From Chloroflexota bacterium (GTDB lineage Bacteria; Chloroflexota; Anaerolineae; UBA4142): a DNA stretch of 55,054 nucleotides. Shown in pieces: positions 31,339-52,233 of the stretch (positions are counted from its first letter, which is position 1; every line of letters begins with the position of its first letter). The notes below the pieces were generated by a model. It was not told where the DNA came from. It searched no databases and saw only the letters and a list, made by a program, of their open reading frames with translations. Made by a program: the position numbers and the translations under genes. The stretch lies in assembly GCA_016219275.1 (NCBI GenBank), contig JACRBM010000059.1, positions 1 through 55,054 of the forward strand, in the 5' to 3' direction.

Positions 31339-33900
31339 TTACACAATGAACGCACCGGGATTGCACAATCCACGCGGGTCCCATTTGTTTTTGAGCGCGC
31401 GCATCACATCAAGCAAATCTGGTTGATGTCCCCACACATCGTTCGATGCGCCGCTCAACACAACCGCGTATCCACCAACCGCGCGAGCGGCTTGGCGCAA
31501 TCCTGCGAGCGACGCGTTGTGCGCGTAGATCAAACCGTTGCCAAAATCCACCATCGCGCGCGTGGCATCAAGTTTCGCGACGACGCTCGCGAGGTCTTTC
31601 GCCGGCACACCCGCGCGCACGAGCGTACCTTCGCGCGACGACGCGTTGATCCAGTTGCCCCACAAATCCGTACCCGACAACGACTCGTCCTGGGTCGCGG
31701 TGAATCCCTCCGCCGCGATCACTTGACGCGCTTCATCAAGTTCCGCGTCCACATCTTCCGGCAAACCTTCGGCAGTATAGACCATCGCGTACGGCGAAGA
31801 TGTCCCAGGCACATCACATCCTTTGCACAGCAACAGCGACGACGCGACCAGACACACGCGCAGTAAACGCATTCCCAGTTTCGTCCCACGATTCAAATCG
31901 TCTACCGGCACAACAAGCGTTTTCCGCGCGCGGGGGAACGGCATCAACTTGAATGTCACCTCGGTCATCACACCGAGCGTGCCGTGCGCGCCGATGAACA
32001 ATTTCACCAGATCGTACCCCGCGACATTCTTGACGACCGGCTTGCCCGCGTGAATGATGCGCCCATCGGGCAACACATTCGTGACCGTCAAGATCAAATC
32101 GCGGAGCGCGCCGTACCGCATTCGCAATGGCGCGTTGTAATTCGTCGCGACGATGCCGCCGATGGTCGCTTCGTTCCACGGTGAGGCAATTGGCGCCCAG
32201 ACTTGATCGCGCGCAAGTTCGGTTTGCAATTCCGCGAGCGTTGTGCCCGCGCCAACCGTCACGTACAAATCATCCCGCGCGTATGCCTTGACGCCGCGCA
32301 GCCCACGCGTGTCGAGCACGATTGCCCCCTCCCCTGTCTTTGGCGGGGGAGGGATGGGGAGGGGGTTGGTGCTTGCACGAATCGTCACACTCGGCGCGGT
32401 ATTCATCGCGTTCCACGCGCGGAACGCATCCGAAATTTCTTCGATAGACGATGGCGCGAACTCGCCGGTGATCGGCGCGCTCAGACCTGTCAGGTCTCTG
32501 AGACCTGACAGGTCTTTAATTCCCGGAATGATTTTGTTTGGATTGAGCAAGTGCCGCGGATCGAAAATATCCTTAATCTCTTGTTGCGCCTGCAATTCTT
32601 CCGGGCTGAACATCAGCGGCATATACTTTATCTTCTCACTGCCGACGCCATGTTCGCCGGTGATCGTGCCGCCCTGGCGCACGCACAACTCCATCACTTG
32701 TTGTCCGGCGATGTGCATACGTTGCACCATCTCTGGATTGCGCGGATCGAACATGATGAGCGGATGCAAATTGCCATCGCCCGCGTGGAACACGTAACCG
32801 ACGCGCAACTCTTGCTCCGCGCAAATGTCATTGATCGCGCCGAGCGTCTTGCCGAGTTTGGAACGCGGCACCGTGCCGTCCACCATCAAAAACGCCGGAC
32901 TGATTTGCGCGATCGCGCCGAACGCGCTCTTCCGCGCGTACCAAATTTGATCGCGTTCCGCCGCCGTTTTCGCGAGCCGCAATTCGCGCGCGCGATTTGC
33001 GCGCAAGACCTGGCTGAACTCGTTCATCTGCGAATCCAGACTCGCGGGAAACCCATCGGCTTCGATGATGAGCAACGCGTTCGCCTCGGTCGGTAAACCG
33101 GCATGGACAAAATTCTCGACGATGCCGATCATATTCTTGTCCATCATTTCCAAAGTCGCCGGCACCAAACCGCGCGCGATCACCGCCGAGACCGCGTCGC
33201 CGGCTTCCTCGACGGAATCGAACGTCGCCATCATCGTCTTGACGCCGGGAATGTTGCGAATCAATCGCACGTACATTTCGGTCATCACGCCGAGCGTTCC
33301 TTCCGAGCCGACAAAAATTCCGGTGAGATCGTACTCGGGATAATCGAGCGCGCGTCCGCCGGTGATGACGACGCGTCCATCGGCAAGCACCACCTTCGCG
33401 CCAGTGACGTAATTTGTCGTCACACCGTACTTGAAACAGTGCGGACCGCCGGCGTTCTCCGCCCAGTTGCCGCCCAGCGTACACGAACGACCGCTCGCTG
33501 GATCGGGTGGATAGTATAACCCTTTTGTTTTTACAAACTCGTCGAACGTTTGATGTACGATCCCAGGTTGCGCGATTGCGGTTCGTCCAACTTCATCCAA
33601 CTCAACGACTTTTTTCATTCGCGCGAACGACATTACGATACCGCCATCGCCCGCGAGCGCGCCGCCGCTCAACCCCGTGCCCGCGCCGCGCGGCACGAGC
33701 GGCACGCCGTGCTCGATTGCCCAGTGCACCATCGCGACCACATCGTTCGTATCGCGCGGCAAGACGAGCGCGGACGGATGACCGATGCCGAGTGAGCCGT
33801 CAATTTCGTACGTGAGCAACTCGACCGGATTCGTCACCACGCTCTCGCGCGGCAAGATAGCGTGAAGCGATTTTGTTATTTCGGCAGTTGGAGTTTGCAT
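31339..33900 (-). CDS. glcDE: Fused glycolate oxidase subunits GlcD-GlcE
   Basis: 853 residues from the ATG at 33900 (AAGGAG upstream). The first half (about 1-470) is GlcD: the FAD-binding PCMH domain with PRGAGTGLSGGAL, PDPASGRSCTLGGNWAENAG and GSEGTLGVMTEMY, then a C-terminal FAD-oxidase domain with HAGDGNLHP and TITGEHGVG. The second half (about 490-853) is GlcE-like: GAGTTLAELQ, NEATIGGIVATNYNAPLRM, KNVAGYDLVKLFIGAHGTLG, WDPRGLCNPGAF. The fusion oxidises glycolate or a similar 2-hydroxy acid and passes electrons to GlcF, encoded next. The linker contains two in-frame copies of palindromic repeats. Confidence 0.9.
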   Translation of the reverse strand: MQTPTAEITKSLHAILPRESVVTNPVELLTYEIDGSLGIGHPSALVLPRDTNDVVAMVHWAIEHGVPLVPRGAGTGLSGGALAGDGGIVMSFARMKKVVELDEVGRTAIAQPGIVHQTFDEFVKTKGLYYPPDPASGRSCTLGGNWAENAGGPHCFKYGVTTNYVTGAKVVLADGRVVITGGRALDYPEYDLTGIFVGSEGTLGVMTEMYVRLIRNIPGVKTMMATFDSVEEAGDAVSAVIARGLVPATLEMMDKNMIGIVENFVHAGLPTEANALLIIEADGFPASLDSQMNEFSQVLRANRARELRLAKTAAERDQIWYARKSAFGAIAQISPAFLMVDGTVPRSKLGKTLGAINDICAEQELRVGYVFHAGDGNLHPLIMFDPRNPEMVQRMHIAGQQVMELCVRQGGTITGEHGVGSEKIKYMPLMFSPEELQAQQEIKDIFDPRHLLNPNKIIPGIKDLSGLRDLTGLSAPITGEFAPSSIEEISDAFRAWNAMNTAPSVTIRASTNPLPIPPPPKTGEGAIVLDTRGLRGVKAYARDDLYVTVGAGTTLAELQTELARDQVWAPIASPWNEATIGGIVATNYNAPLRMRYGALRDLILTVTNVLPDGRIIHAGKPVVKNVAGYDLVKLFIGAHGTLGVMTEVTFKLMPFPRARKTLVVPVDDLNRGTKLGMRLLRVCLVASSLLLCKGCDVPGTSSPYAMVYTAEGLPEDVDAELDEARQVIAAEGFTATQDESLSGTDLWGNWINASSREGTLVRAGVPAKDLASVVAKLDATRAMVDFGNGLIYAHNASLAGLRQAARAVGGYAVVLSGASNDVWGHQPDLLDVMRALKNKWDPRGLCNPGAFIV
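32324..32368. repeat. C/G-rich palindromic repeat inside glcDE
   Basis: GCCCCCTCCCC, then GGGGGAGGG and GGGGAGGGGG, the type otherwise seen between genes (compare 52159-52210). On the minus strand it encodes NPLPIPPPPKTGEG without breaking the frame. Confidence 0.65.
32483..32515. repeat. AGACCTGTCAGGTCT palindrome inside glcDE
   Basis: AGACCTGTCAGGTCTC and GAGACCTGACAGGTCT are perfect reverse complements around one base. It encodes KDLSGLRDLTGLS in the linker between the GlcD and GlcE halves. Confidence 0.7.
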
Positions 33901-33913
33901 CAGACTCCTTGAT

Positions 33914-33965
33914 GTAGGGCAAGTTACCAACTTGCCAAGTAACGCAAGTTGGAAACTTGCGCTAC
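33914..33965. repeat. Double GCAAGTT palindrome between glcDE and glcF
   Basis: GGCAAGTTACCAACTTGCC followed by GCAAGTTGGAAACTTGCG. A related single copy is at 41087-41099. It overlaps the last codons of glcF. Confidence 0.6.
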
Positions 33966-35260
33966 TGGTCCATCGCTTGGTACGACATATCGAGCAATTC
34001 GACGACGTGCTTGACCTGGGATTTCAACCCAGCTTTGCGCGTGCCCGCGATCAATTGCATGTGGCAGCCGACATTCGTCGTGATGATCATTTCCGCGCCC
34101 GTCGAAGCAATGTCCGCCATTTTCGCGTCGAGCACCTGGTCTGCCGTTTCAGATTGCGCGATGTTGTACACACCCGCGCTCCCGCAACACCGATCCGGCA
34201 ACTTGAGTTCGACGAGTTCGACGCCGGGAATGCTCTTGATCAAATCGCGCGGTTGCTTGGCGACTTTTTGCACGTGGCGCAAATGGCACGAGTCCGAGTA
34301 CGTCGCGCGAATTTTCACTTCGCCTTTGGGCGGCACGTTGAAATGCGCGGACAGAAATTCAGAAACGTCCTTGACCTTCGCCGCAAATTTTTTCGCCTTA
34401 TCCGCGTACACCGGATCGTTGCGGAATAGATGCAAGTATTCTTCTTTGAGCGTTGCGCCGCACCCGCCCGCGTTCGAAATCACCGCGTCGTACTCGCGCG
34501 CGAGAAACGCATCAATGTTTTTCCGCGCGAGTTGCTCGACCAACGCGTGCTCGCCGACGTGCAACTGCGCCGCGCCGCAACACGTTTGCCCGGCGGGAAA
34601 GTGCACCGTGTAGCCGTTGCGTTGCAGAACGCGAATCGTCGCCGCATTGACCGGCGCGAGAAACGCTTCCTGGATGCAACCGATAAAGAATGCGACCTCG
34701 CCGCGTTTTTCGCCGATGGCTGGCGCGGGTTCGCGATAATCGCGATATTCGGGCACGATGGGCGGCAGAATCGCCTCCATCGTTTTGAGCGGGCGCGGCA
34801 AGATATTGAGCGCGCGCACGAGTTTCTGCAAACCGATGATTTGATACAGCCACATCAAACGCGCCATCGCTTTGAGCCGATCCAGGTGCGGCATCATCTC
34901 GCGCAAACCCAGCCAACGGACAAATCGTTCGAGCGTCCCTGGTTGGTGGTTCGCCATGATGACTTGATGCGCGCCGTCCACGAGCGCGCCGTACTTGACG
35001 CCCGACGGACACGCGGTTTCGCACGAGCGACACGCGAGACACAGGTTGATGTGTTTCGCAAACGCATCGTTGAACTCGTCCAACTCGATGCGACCTTCGG
35101 AGACCGCGCGCATCAACGCGATGCGACCGCGCGGCGCGTCCATCTCGGTGCCGAACACGGCGTACGTCGGGCATGACTGCAAACACAAGCCGCAGTGAAT
35201 GCACTGCGCCAATTTTGTTTTGTAATCGGGAGACTGCATTAGTTCGATGTTGTGAATCAT
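33962..35260 (-). CDS. glcF: Glycolate oxidase iron-sulfur subunit GlcF
   Basis: 432 residues from the ATG at 35260 (GAGG upstream). Two 4Fe-4S sites: CIHCGLCLQSCPTY at about 20-33 and CLACRSCETACPSG at about 72-85. Two CCG domains follow, with FFIGCIQEAFLAPV, GQTCCGAAQLHVGE, SNAGGCGATLKE, SDSCHLRHVQKV and DRCCGSAGVYN. It carries electrons from GlcDE to the membrane quinone pool. Directly upstream of glcDE on the same strand, so the two form an operon. Confidence 0.93.
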   Translation of the reverse strand: MIHNIELMQSPDYKTKLAQCIHCGLCLQSCPTYAVFGTEMDAPRGRIALMRAVSEGRIELDEFNDAFAKHINLCLACRSCETACPSGVKYGALVDGAHQVIMANHQPGTLERFVRWLGLREMMPHLDRLKAMARLMWLYQIIGLQKLVRALNILPRPLKTMEAILPPIVPEYRDYREPAPAIGEKRGEVAFFIGCIQEAFLAPVNAATIRVLQRNGYTVHFPAGQTCCGAAQLHVGEHALVEQLARKNIDAFLAREYDAVISNAGGCGATLKEEYLHLFRNDPVYADKAKKFAAKVKDVSEFLSAHFNVPPKGEVKIRATYSDSCHLRHVQKVAKQPRDLIKSIPGVELVELKLPDRCCGSAGVYNIAQSETADQVLDAKMADIASTGAEMIITTNVGCHMQLIAGTRKAGLKSQVKHVVELLDMSYQAMDQ

Positions 35261-41060: not shown

Positions 41061-41121
41061 ACTGAGCAATCAAATTGTAGAGCAAGTTTCCAACTTGCCT
41101 CACAACTGCTGAGGAGACATT

Positions 41122-50718: not shown

Positions 50719-52210
<1,492 letters not shown>

Positions 52211-52233
52211 TCGGGGGATGGGGGCGAGGCATT

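Follow-up and report, generated by a model that had tools for sequence, protein, structure and literature searches.

The glcDE gene of a Chloroflexota bacterium carries two palindromic repeats inside its reading frame. The question is whether mobile DNA has supplied codons to this protein, or even enabled the fusion of its two subunits, as the original prediction proposed. The gene occupies positions 31339–33930 on the minus strand of the window, the 55,054-nt stretch of contig JACRBM010000059.1 that was analysed, and encodes 863 aa in which GlcD (FAD oxidase) is fused to GlcE. Residues 56–466 match TIGR00387 (glcD) with 562 bits (cut-off 568), and residues 538–861 match PRK11282 (GlcE) with 194 bits (cut-off 284); the two models are collinear along the single ORF, each under its equivalog cut-off. 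Pfam matches are PF01565, in two stretches, and PF02913. Upstream lies a gene for a glcF-like iron-sulphur subunit (33962–35260, minus strand; PRK11274 GlcF, 295 bits, cut-off 333) with two CCG domains. Another palindrome, GTAACGCAAGTTGGAAACTTGCGCTAC, is seen between glcF and glcDE at 33939–33965, and a related one at 41077–41103. The window also begins with a CRISPR-like array (1–760), in which a direct repeat, GTCGCTCC..GGGGAGCGTGGATTGAAAC, recurs at least 11 times at a spacing of 65–68 nt.

The first site (site 1) is the interdomain linker, residues 472–482. The repeat here, at 32483–32515, is a perfect 33-nt double palindrome, AGACCTGTCAGGTCT-CTG-AGACCTGACAGGTCT. It consists of two 15-nt palindromes, each of which is also the reverse complement of the other. 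Its DNA fold is a single hairpin, with a stem of 15 bp and three loop nucleotides (-17.3 kcal/mol, z -6.35). The exact pattern is present in the window, against 0 expected from 100 shuffles, and its own genome contains 31 exact-pattern copies and none in the reversed control. The peptide DLSGLRDLTGL is translated from it, in frame within the 863-aa ORF. When 14-mers of glcDE were counted against samples of its own genome, the palindrome stood out with 24 copies outside the gene; elsewhere in the gene, GC-rich codons make this count too noisy, as do paralogues in G012.

The second site (site 2) is a loop of the GlcE half, residues about 522–535, directly before the FAD-domain strand 536–540. 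The C/G-rich inverted repeat at 32325–32365 is translated in frame as NPLPIPPPPKTGEG; its fold z is -3.1, and shuffled sequence gave no such repeat. Exact patterns of this repeat occur in 1 and 4 copies in the genome, and the family core, CCCTCCCC-N2-30-GGGGAGGG, in 91 copies, versus 0 in the reversed-pattern control. L192 has a near copy of the glcDE stretch, with CAAAGACAGGGGAGGG common to both. An intergenic repeat of the same kind, at 52133–52227, lies in the gap between two minus-strand ORFs of 465 and 296 aa, which by their sizes are putatively atpD and atpG; the original prediction likewise mentions a C/G-rich repeat in the atp operon. The C/G repeat is a dispersed palindrome unrelated to the site 1 element, and it probably landed in a GlcE loop. 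Six homologues (L006, L095, L096, L098, L015, and L016) have RGGGTK or RGGGSK at site 2. RGGGTK is presumably the FAD pyrophosphate loop. By eye, [RH]G[GA]G[TS]K is kept in 8 of 36 fused rows and is absent from the window protein. The claim that both palindromes lie in glcDE in frame, as KDLSGLRDLTGLS and NPLPIPPPPKTGEG, is therefore borne out by exact patterns and shuffles, and copy counts show both to be dispersed in the genome. They had been placed at or just after the subunit junction; this holds for the palindrome, whereas the C/G repeat is inside the GlcE half.

The palindrome pattern was matched in 34 of the 79 genomes searched, several of them incomplete metagenome bins, and the reversed controls gave 0 in each. 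Between 132 and 147 of 147 copies pair at each arm position. Positions 6–8 were free in the search pattern; they vary, yet pair in 147, 146, and 144 copies. No GTAG or GTGG tag is seen beside the stem in the 294 flanks of these copies: none of positions -15 to -2 exceeds 0.12 bits, and position -1 is A in 98%. A survey of 138 copies, namely those in the surveyed loci, a subset of the copies in those genomes, places 116 outside coding ORFs; the family is thus mostly extragenic. The share in genes, 22 of 138 or about a sixth, comprises copies within ORFs that show coding signal on either side of the copy: 11 are read as DLxGLxDLxGL, 9 as QTFEVSETSKV, and 2 in the third frame. Instead of by a gene caller, coding copies were recognised by an open frame that, on each side, continued for 90 nt or more within the ORF and had codon log-odds of 6 bits or higher.

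Some coding copies are found in AfsR-like STAND ATPases beside intact P-loop motifs, one in L093 and two in L077/L261, where the second is in frame and was excluded by the coding rule. AfsR-like ATPases without the palindrome (L204, the second gene of L244, and L176) show gaps of about 12 residues, and relative to these empty homologues the copies are clean insertions. L283 likewise contains an AfsR-like STAND ATPase with in-frame double palindrome(s) beside an intact P-loop. A STAND/FGE-sulfatase gene has the palindrome at the same position in the window's genome and in L263; an old shared insertion and two separate insertions are equally likely. Several in-frame palindromes are also present in adjacent ORFs of L296 (1–3424) that by eye resemble type I restriction-modification genes.

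A candidate transposase is present in the same genome. The RAYT-like gene, 205 aa, is located at C58:121063–121677 (= L040:2064–2681) and matches NCBIfam REP_Tyr_transpos with 51 bits (cut-off 80). NF047646 scores of the RAYT-like proteins are 51 and 51.9 bits, under the cut-off of 80. PF01797 gives E 0.17 for this protein, and E 2.8e-5 with 24.6 bits, above the cut-off of 23, for its homologue in G011. The Y1_Tnp Pfam search of the genome did not recover the C58 gene; the one ORF that it matched is at C40, in a locus free of palindromes. The RAYT ORF is bracketed by double palindromes at L040:1984–2016 and 2688–2720, which are of the GTC/GAC type, as is the glcDE copy. Two of the 22 coding copies belong to the genes in this genome and in G011, each in frame directly after NHFHLLVR, which we take to be the HUH motif. 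The bracketing and internal copies in G011 belong to the commonest type there (16/26 copies). Palindrome-flanked RAYT genes are also seen in L331 (two) and L333.

A RAYT search in the same 79 genomes gave a match in 34, strong (E<1e-40) in 14. All seven genomes with at least 20 palindromes have a strong RAYT, while none of the 65 genomes without one reaches that number (Fisher 1.2e-6). At least four half-palindromes are found at 13 of 14 strong RAYT loci versus 1 of 16 weak loci. A hairpin (score 15–19) in frame right after the HUH motif is present in 9 of 12 readable strong RAYTs versus 0 of 9 readable weak ones; the rows unreadable by motif, L334 and L339 (strong) and 7 of 16 weak loci, were left out. 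The genes with this hairpin lie in L326–L338. The arm sequences of the internal hairpins differ between genomes, with complementarity kept. Some of these arms (ACCCGAAGGGT) are outside the search pattern, so that all palindrome copy numbers given here are lower bounds. These facts suggest that the RAYT moves the palindrome element.

In the AlphaFold2 model of GlcDE (input of 12 aligned fusions, mean pLDDT 81.9), five internal segments have pLDDT below 50. Two of them, 472–481 and 522–534, the latter between strands 514–518 and 536–540, are the peptides encoded by the two repeats; the others (44–48, 83–93, and 161–169) are without repeats. The repeat-encoded peptides are thus predicted to be disordered loops. 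Homologues have very different peptides, or none, at both sites. These features do not demonstrate exaptation, the term of the original prediction, if it is taken to mean a selected function. The repeats did provide in-frame loop codons, supplied or replaced, and the view of the linker codons as a tolerated insertion rather than a demonstrated exaptation is upheld. The protein is presumably expressed and active, and the insertions would be close to neutral.

Other repeats are found at the same two sites. By eye, there are C/G-rich repeats in L005 and L034, CTTCGACTCCGCTCAGG-type palindromes in L036, L033, and L095, a nested palindrome in L012, and heptanucleotide arrays in homologues as well. 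The genome of the window has a second glcDE paralogue (L031:172–2736, on C81), whose site 2 is occupied by a (CAGAATT)n array. Strong repeats, with an inverted-repeat score of at least 14 or a TRF score of at least 50, were counted inside the aligned protein in the other 35 fused genes, the window's own gene being left out. Nine of the 13 strong inverted or tandem repeats are on the two sites, and four are off them: L096 (near the C-terminus), L013, L095, and L050. Repeats mapping before the start of the aligned protein (L002, L099, L096, and L011) are not among the 13. Depending on the site width taken, between 32 and 70 residues, the binomial probability is between 8e-11 and 8e-8; it assumes independence, which related genes violate, and the two sites had been inspected before this test. 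Both loops are permissive, having repeatedly taken other repeats in other homologues.

The age of the fusion can be read from its homologues. We collected 36 distinct fused genes, most of which are without either repeat, and repeat-less fusions occur in Ktedonobacter, Anaerolineae, and other phyla. The junction could thus be compared with fusions lacking the repeats both across Chloroflexota and beyond. In the tree, 28 fusions form one clade (100/100), every one of them from Chloroflexota or the class of the window; starred branches impose at least two changes at site 1, where the palindrome must have been gained separately two or more times. L004, 55% identical to the window gene, has a near-perfect palindrome at site 1 (37/39 points), which is two codons nearer the NPGK motif and therefore suggests a separate event. 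The nearest relative, L002 (72–73% identity), has a linker of equal length and a degraded palindrome (29/39 points; the maximum over 180 shuffled genes is also 29), which indicates that a perfect palindrome is dispensable for the linker. The double palindrome entered the linker at least twice, in L001 with L002 and in L004. The GlcD-GlcE fusion predates the repeats. No description of this fusion was recognised among the open-access papers searched.

The most probable explanation, to which we give a probability of roughly 0.8, is that a mobile 33-nt hairpin, a REPIN-like REP doublet whose copying is probably due to a RAYT (HUH, Y1-type) transposase, inserted in frame into the linker of GlcDE, a permissive stretch of a protein that was already fused. 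The C/G-rich repeat would be another dispersed palindrome, unrelated to the first, whose insertion hit the GlcE loop where the RGGGTK of some homologues is gone. A chance or compositional origin, from C/G-rich, palindromic codons in a GC-rich gene, can draw on the richness of the genome in GC repeats and on the simple composition of the C/G repeat; the absence of matches in shuffles and the dispersed copies of both repeats, with none in the reversed-pattern controls, rule it out as their source and leave it a negligible probability. The original prediction went further, in that the insertions may even have enabled the fusion; on such a reading a repeat would have bridged glcD and glcE, removed the stop, and so created or enabled the fused gene. 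The palindrome is indeed exactly at the linker, but the widespread fusions without these repeats, the single Chloroflexota fusion clade with later separate gains, and the fused L002 and L095, with a degraded palindrome or none, make this very improbable, and the tree contradicts an enabling role.

Selection might instead act on an mRNA hairpin that, lying where the two domains meet, could for instance make the ribosome pause and give GlcD time to fold ahead of GlcE synthesis. This would fit the near-perfect copies that L001 and L004 have separately at almost identical positions, as well as the other structured repeats there in several homologues; many homologues, however, have no hairpin at site 1, the heptanucleotide arrays at the same sites need not fold, and the copy of the nearest relative has decayed, so that such selection is improbable, if somewhat less so than fusion by the repeat. 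A spread without transposase, via gene conversion or replication slippage between hairpins, is the least improbable of the alternatives, and still unlikely. For C/G repeats and heptanucleotide arrays, which also occupy these sites, no mobiliser was found. Besides, 9–15 palindromes are present without a strong RAYT in G002, G004, G007, G008, G015, G019, G030, and G077 (11–15 in G002, G004, G007, G015, and G019), though some genomes are incomplete. Against this, copy number and local palindromes are strongly tied to RAYT genes, and the insertions of about 12 residues in the ATPases are clean.

REPINs, REP doublets that form hairpins and are accompanied by RAYT transposases, are already known (PMC3116915, PMC2817692; also PMC6006769). 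The Chloroflexota elements resemble them in being inverted pairs of short palindromes within one hairpin with compensatory arm changes (PMC3116915, PMC2817692), in having one family per RAYT, and in the RAYT gene being flanked by its palindromes. They differ in lacking the GTAG/GTGG tag, in the compact pair of 33 nt with a 3-nt spacer (spacings of 71 and 110 bp were used for SBW25), and in the in-frame copy inside the RAYT gene and the share of copies that fall within coding ORFs. Intragenic REPs of the GTAG and CGTC kinds, including dimers, are translated inside ORFs, and recB of two Xanthomonas species was struck at about the same site (PMC3733652). Those REPs are likewise palindromes, often dimers, wholly within ORFs, but are tagged with GTAG or CGTC, unlike the Chloroflexota palindrome (PMC3733652). 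GTAG repeats are reported from Chloroflexi, GTAG-23 in T. roseum, and the available parts of that paper do not mention an untagged family (PMC3733652). Since intragenic REPs were already known, the untagged REPIN-like family in Chloroflexota is a variant on them. No untagged Chloroflexota REPIN family, and no RAYT gene with its own hairpin in frame, was seen among the open-access papers searched, which is weak evidence of absence.

Rickettsia palindromic elements (RPE), about 150 bp according to a review (PMC10969869; also PMC3733652), are also mobile palindromes, which ordinary enzymes carry in frame and retain as inserted peptides (PMC10969869, PMC3733652). This trait, in-frame insertion into unrelated functional genes, is present here, as the coding copies and the ATPases with their empty homologues indicate. 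The glcDE element does not have the sequence of an RPE family, whether the form of about 150 bp or the CGTC-tagged RPE-4/-6: it is 33 nt, begins with AGACCT, is untagged, belongs to Chloroflexota, and has a likely RAYT partner. The PARCEL trait, a 25-residue motif in tandem arrays (PMC2996958), is absent from glcDE, which has a single 11-codon insert. The G-rich heptameric tandem repeats of Xanthomonas and Nostoc are period-7 arrays scattered through a genome, as seen here, but are under-represented in coding regions (PMC4692102), whereas 51 of 170 arrays here lie inside coding ORFs, some at the glcDE sites. By genome sample, the coding fractions are 8/18, 12/40, 22/75, 6/20, and 3/17 (five samples; L185–L254 and the window).

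The case brings together an untagged REPIN-like family, its likely transposase, protein loops that unrelated repeats have entered again and again, and a transposase gene bearing its likely target in frame. This makes glcDE a testable case of mobile non-coding DNA turned into protein sequence. The linker peptides of GlcDE in this group derive from repeats, and it would be wrong to take them for functional motifs. It can be tentatively speculated, as a possibility that we hold to be rather doubtful, that this Chloroflexota RAYT lineage tags its own gene, where the internal copy may be a working part (for self-recognition, autoregulation, or as a record of the hairpin served), and that the lineage may have an uncommon capacity for writing this hairpin into protein sequence. 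If so, glcDE would be one among many genes that a coding-tolerant REPIN has edited.
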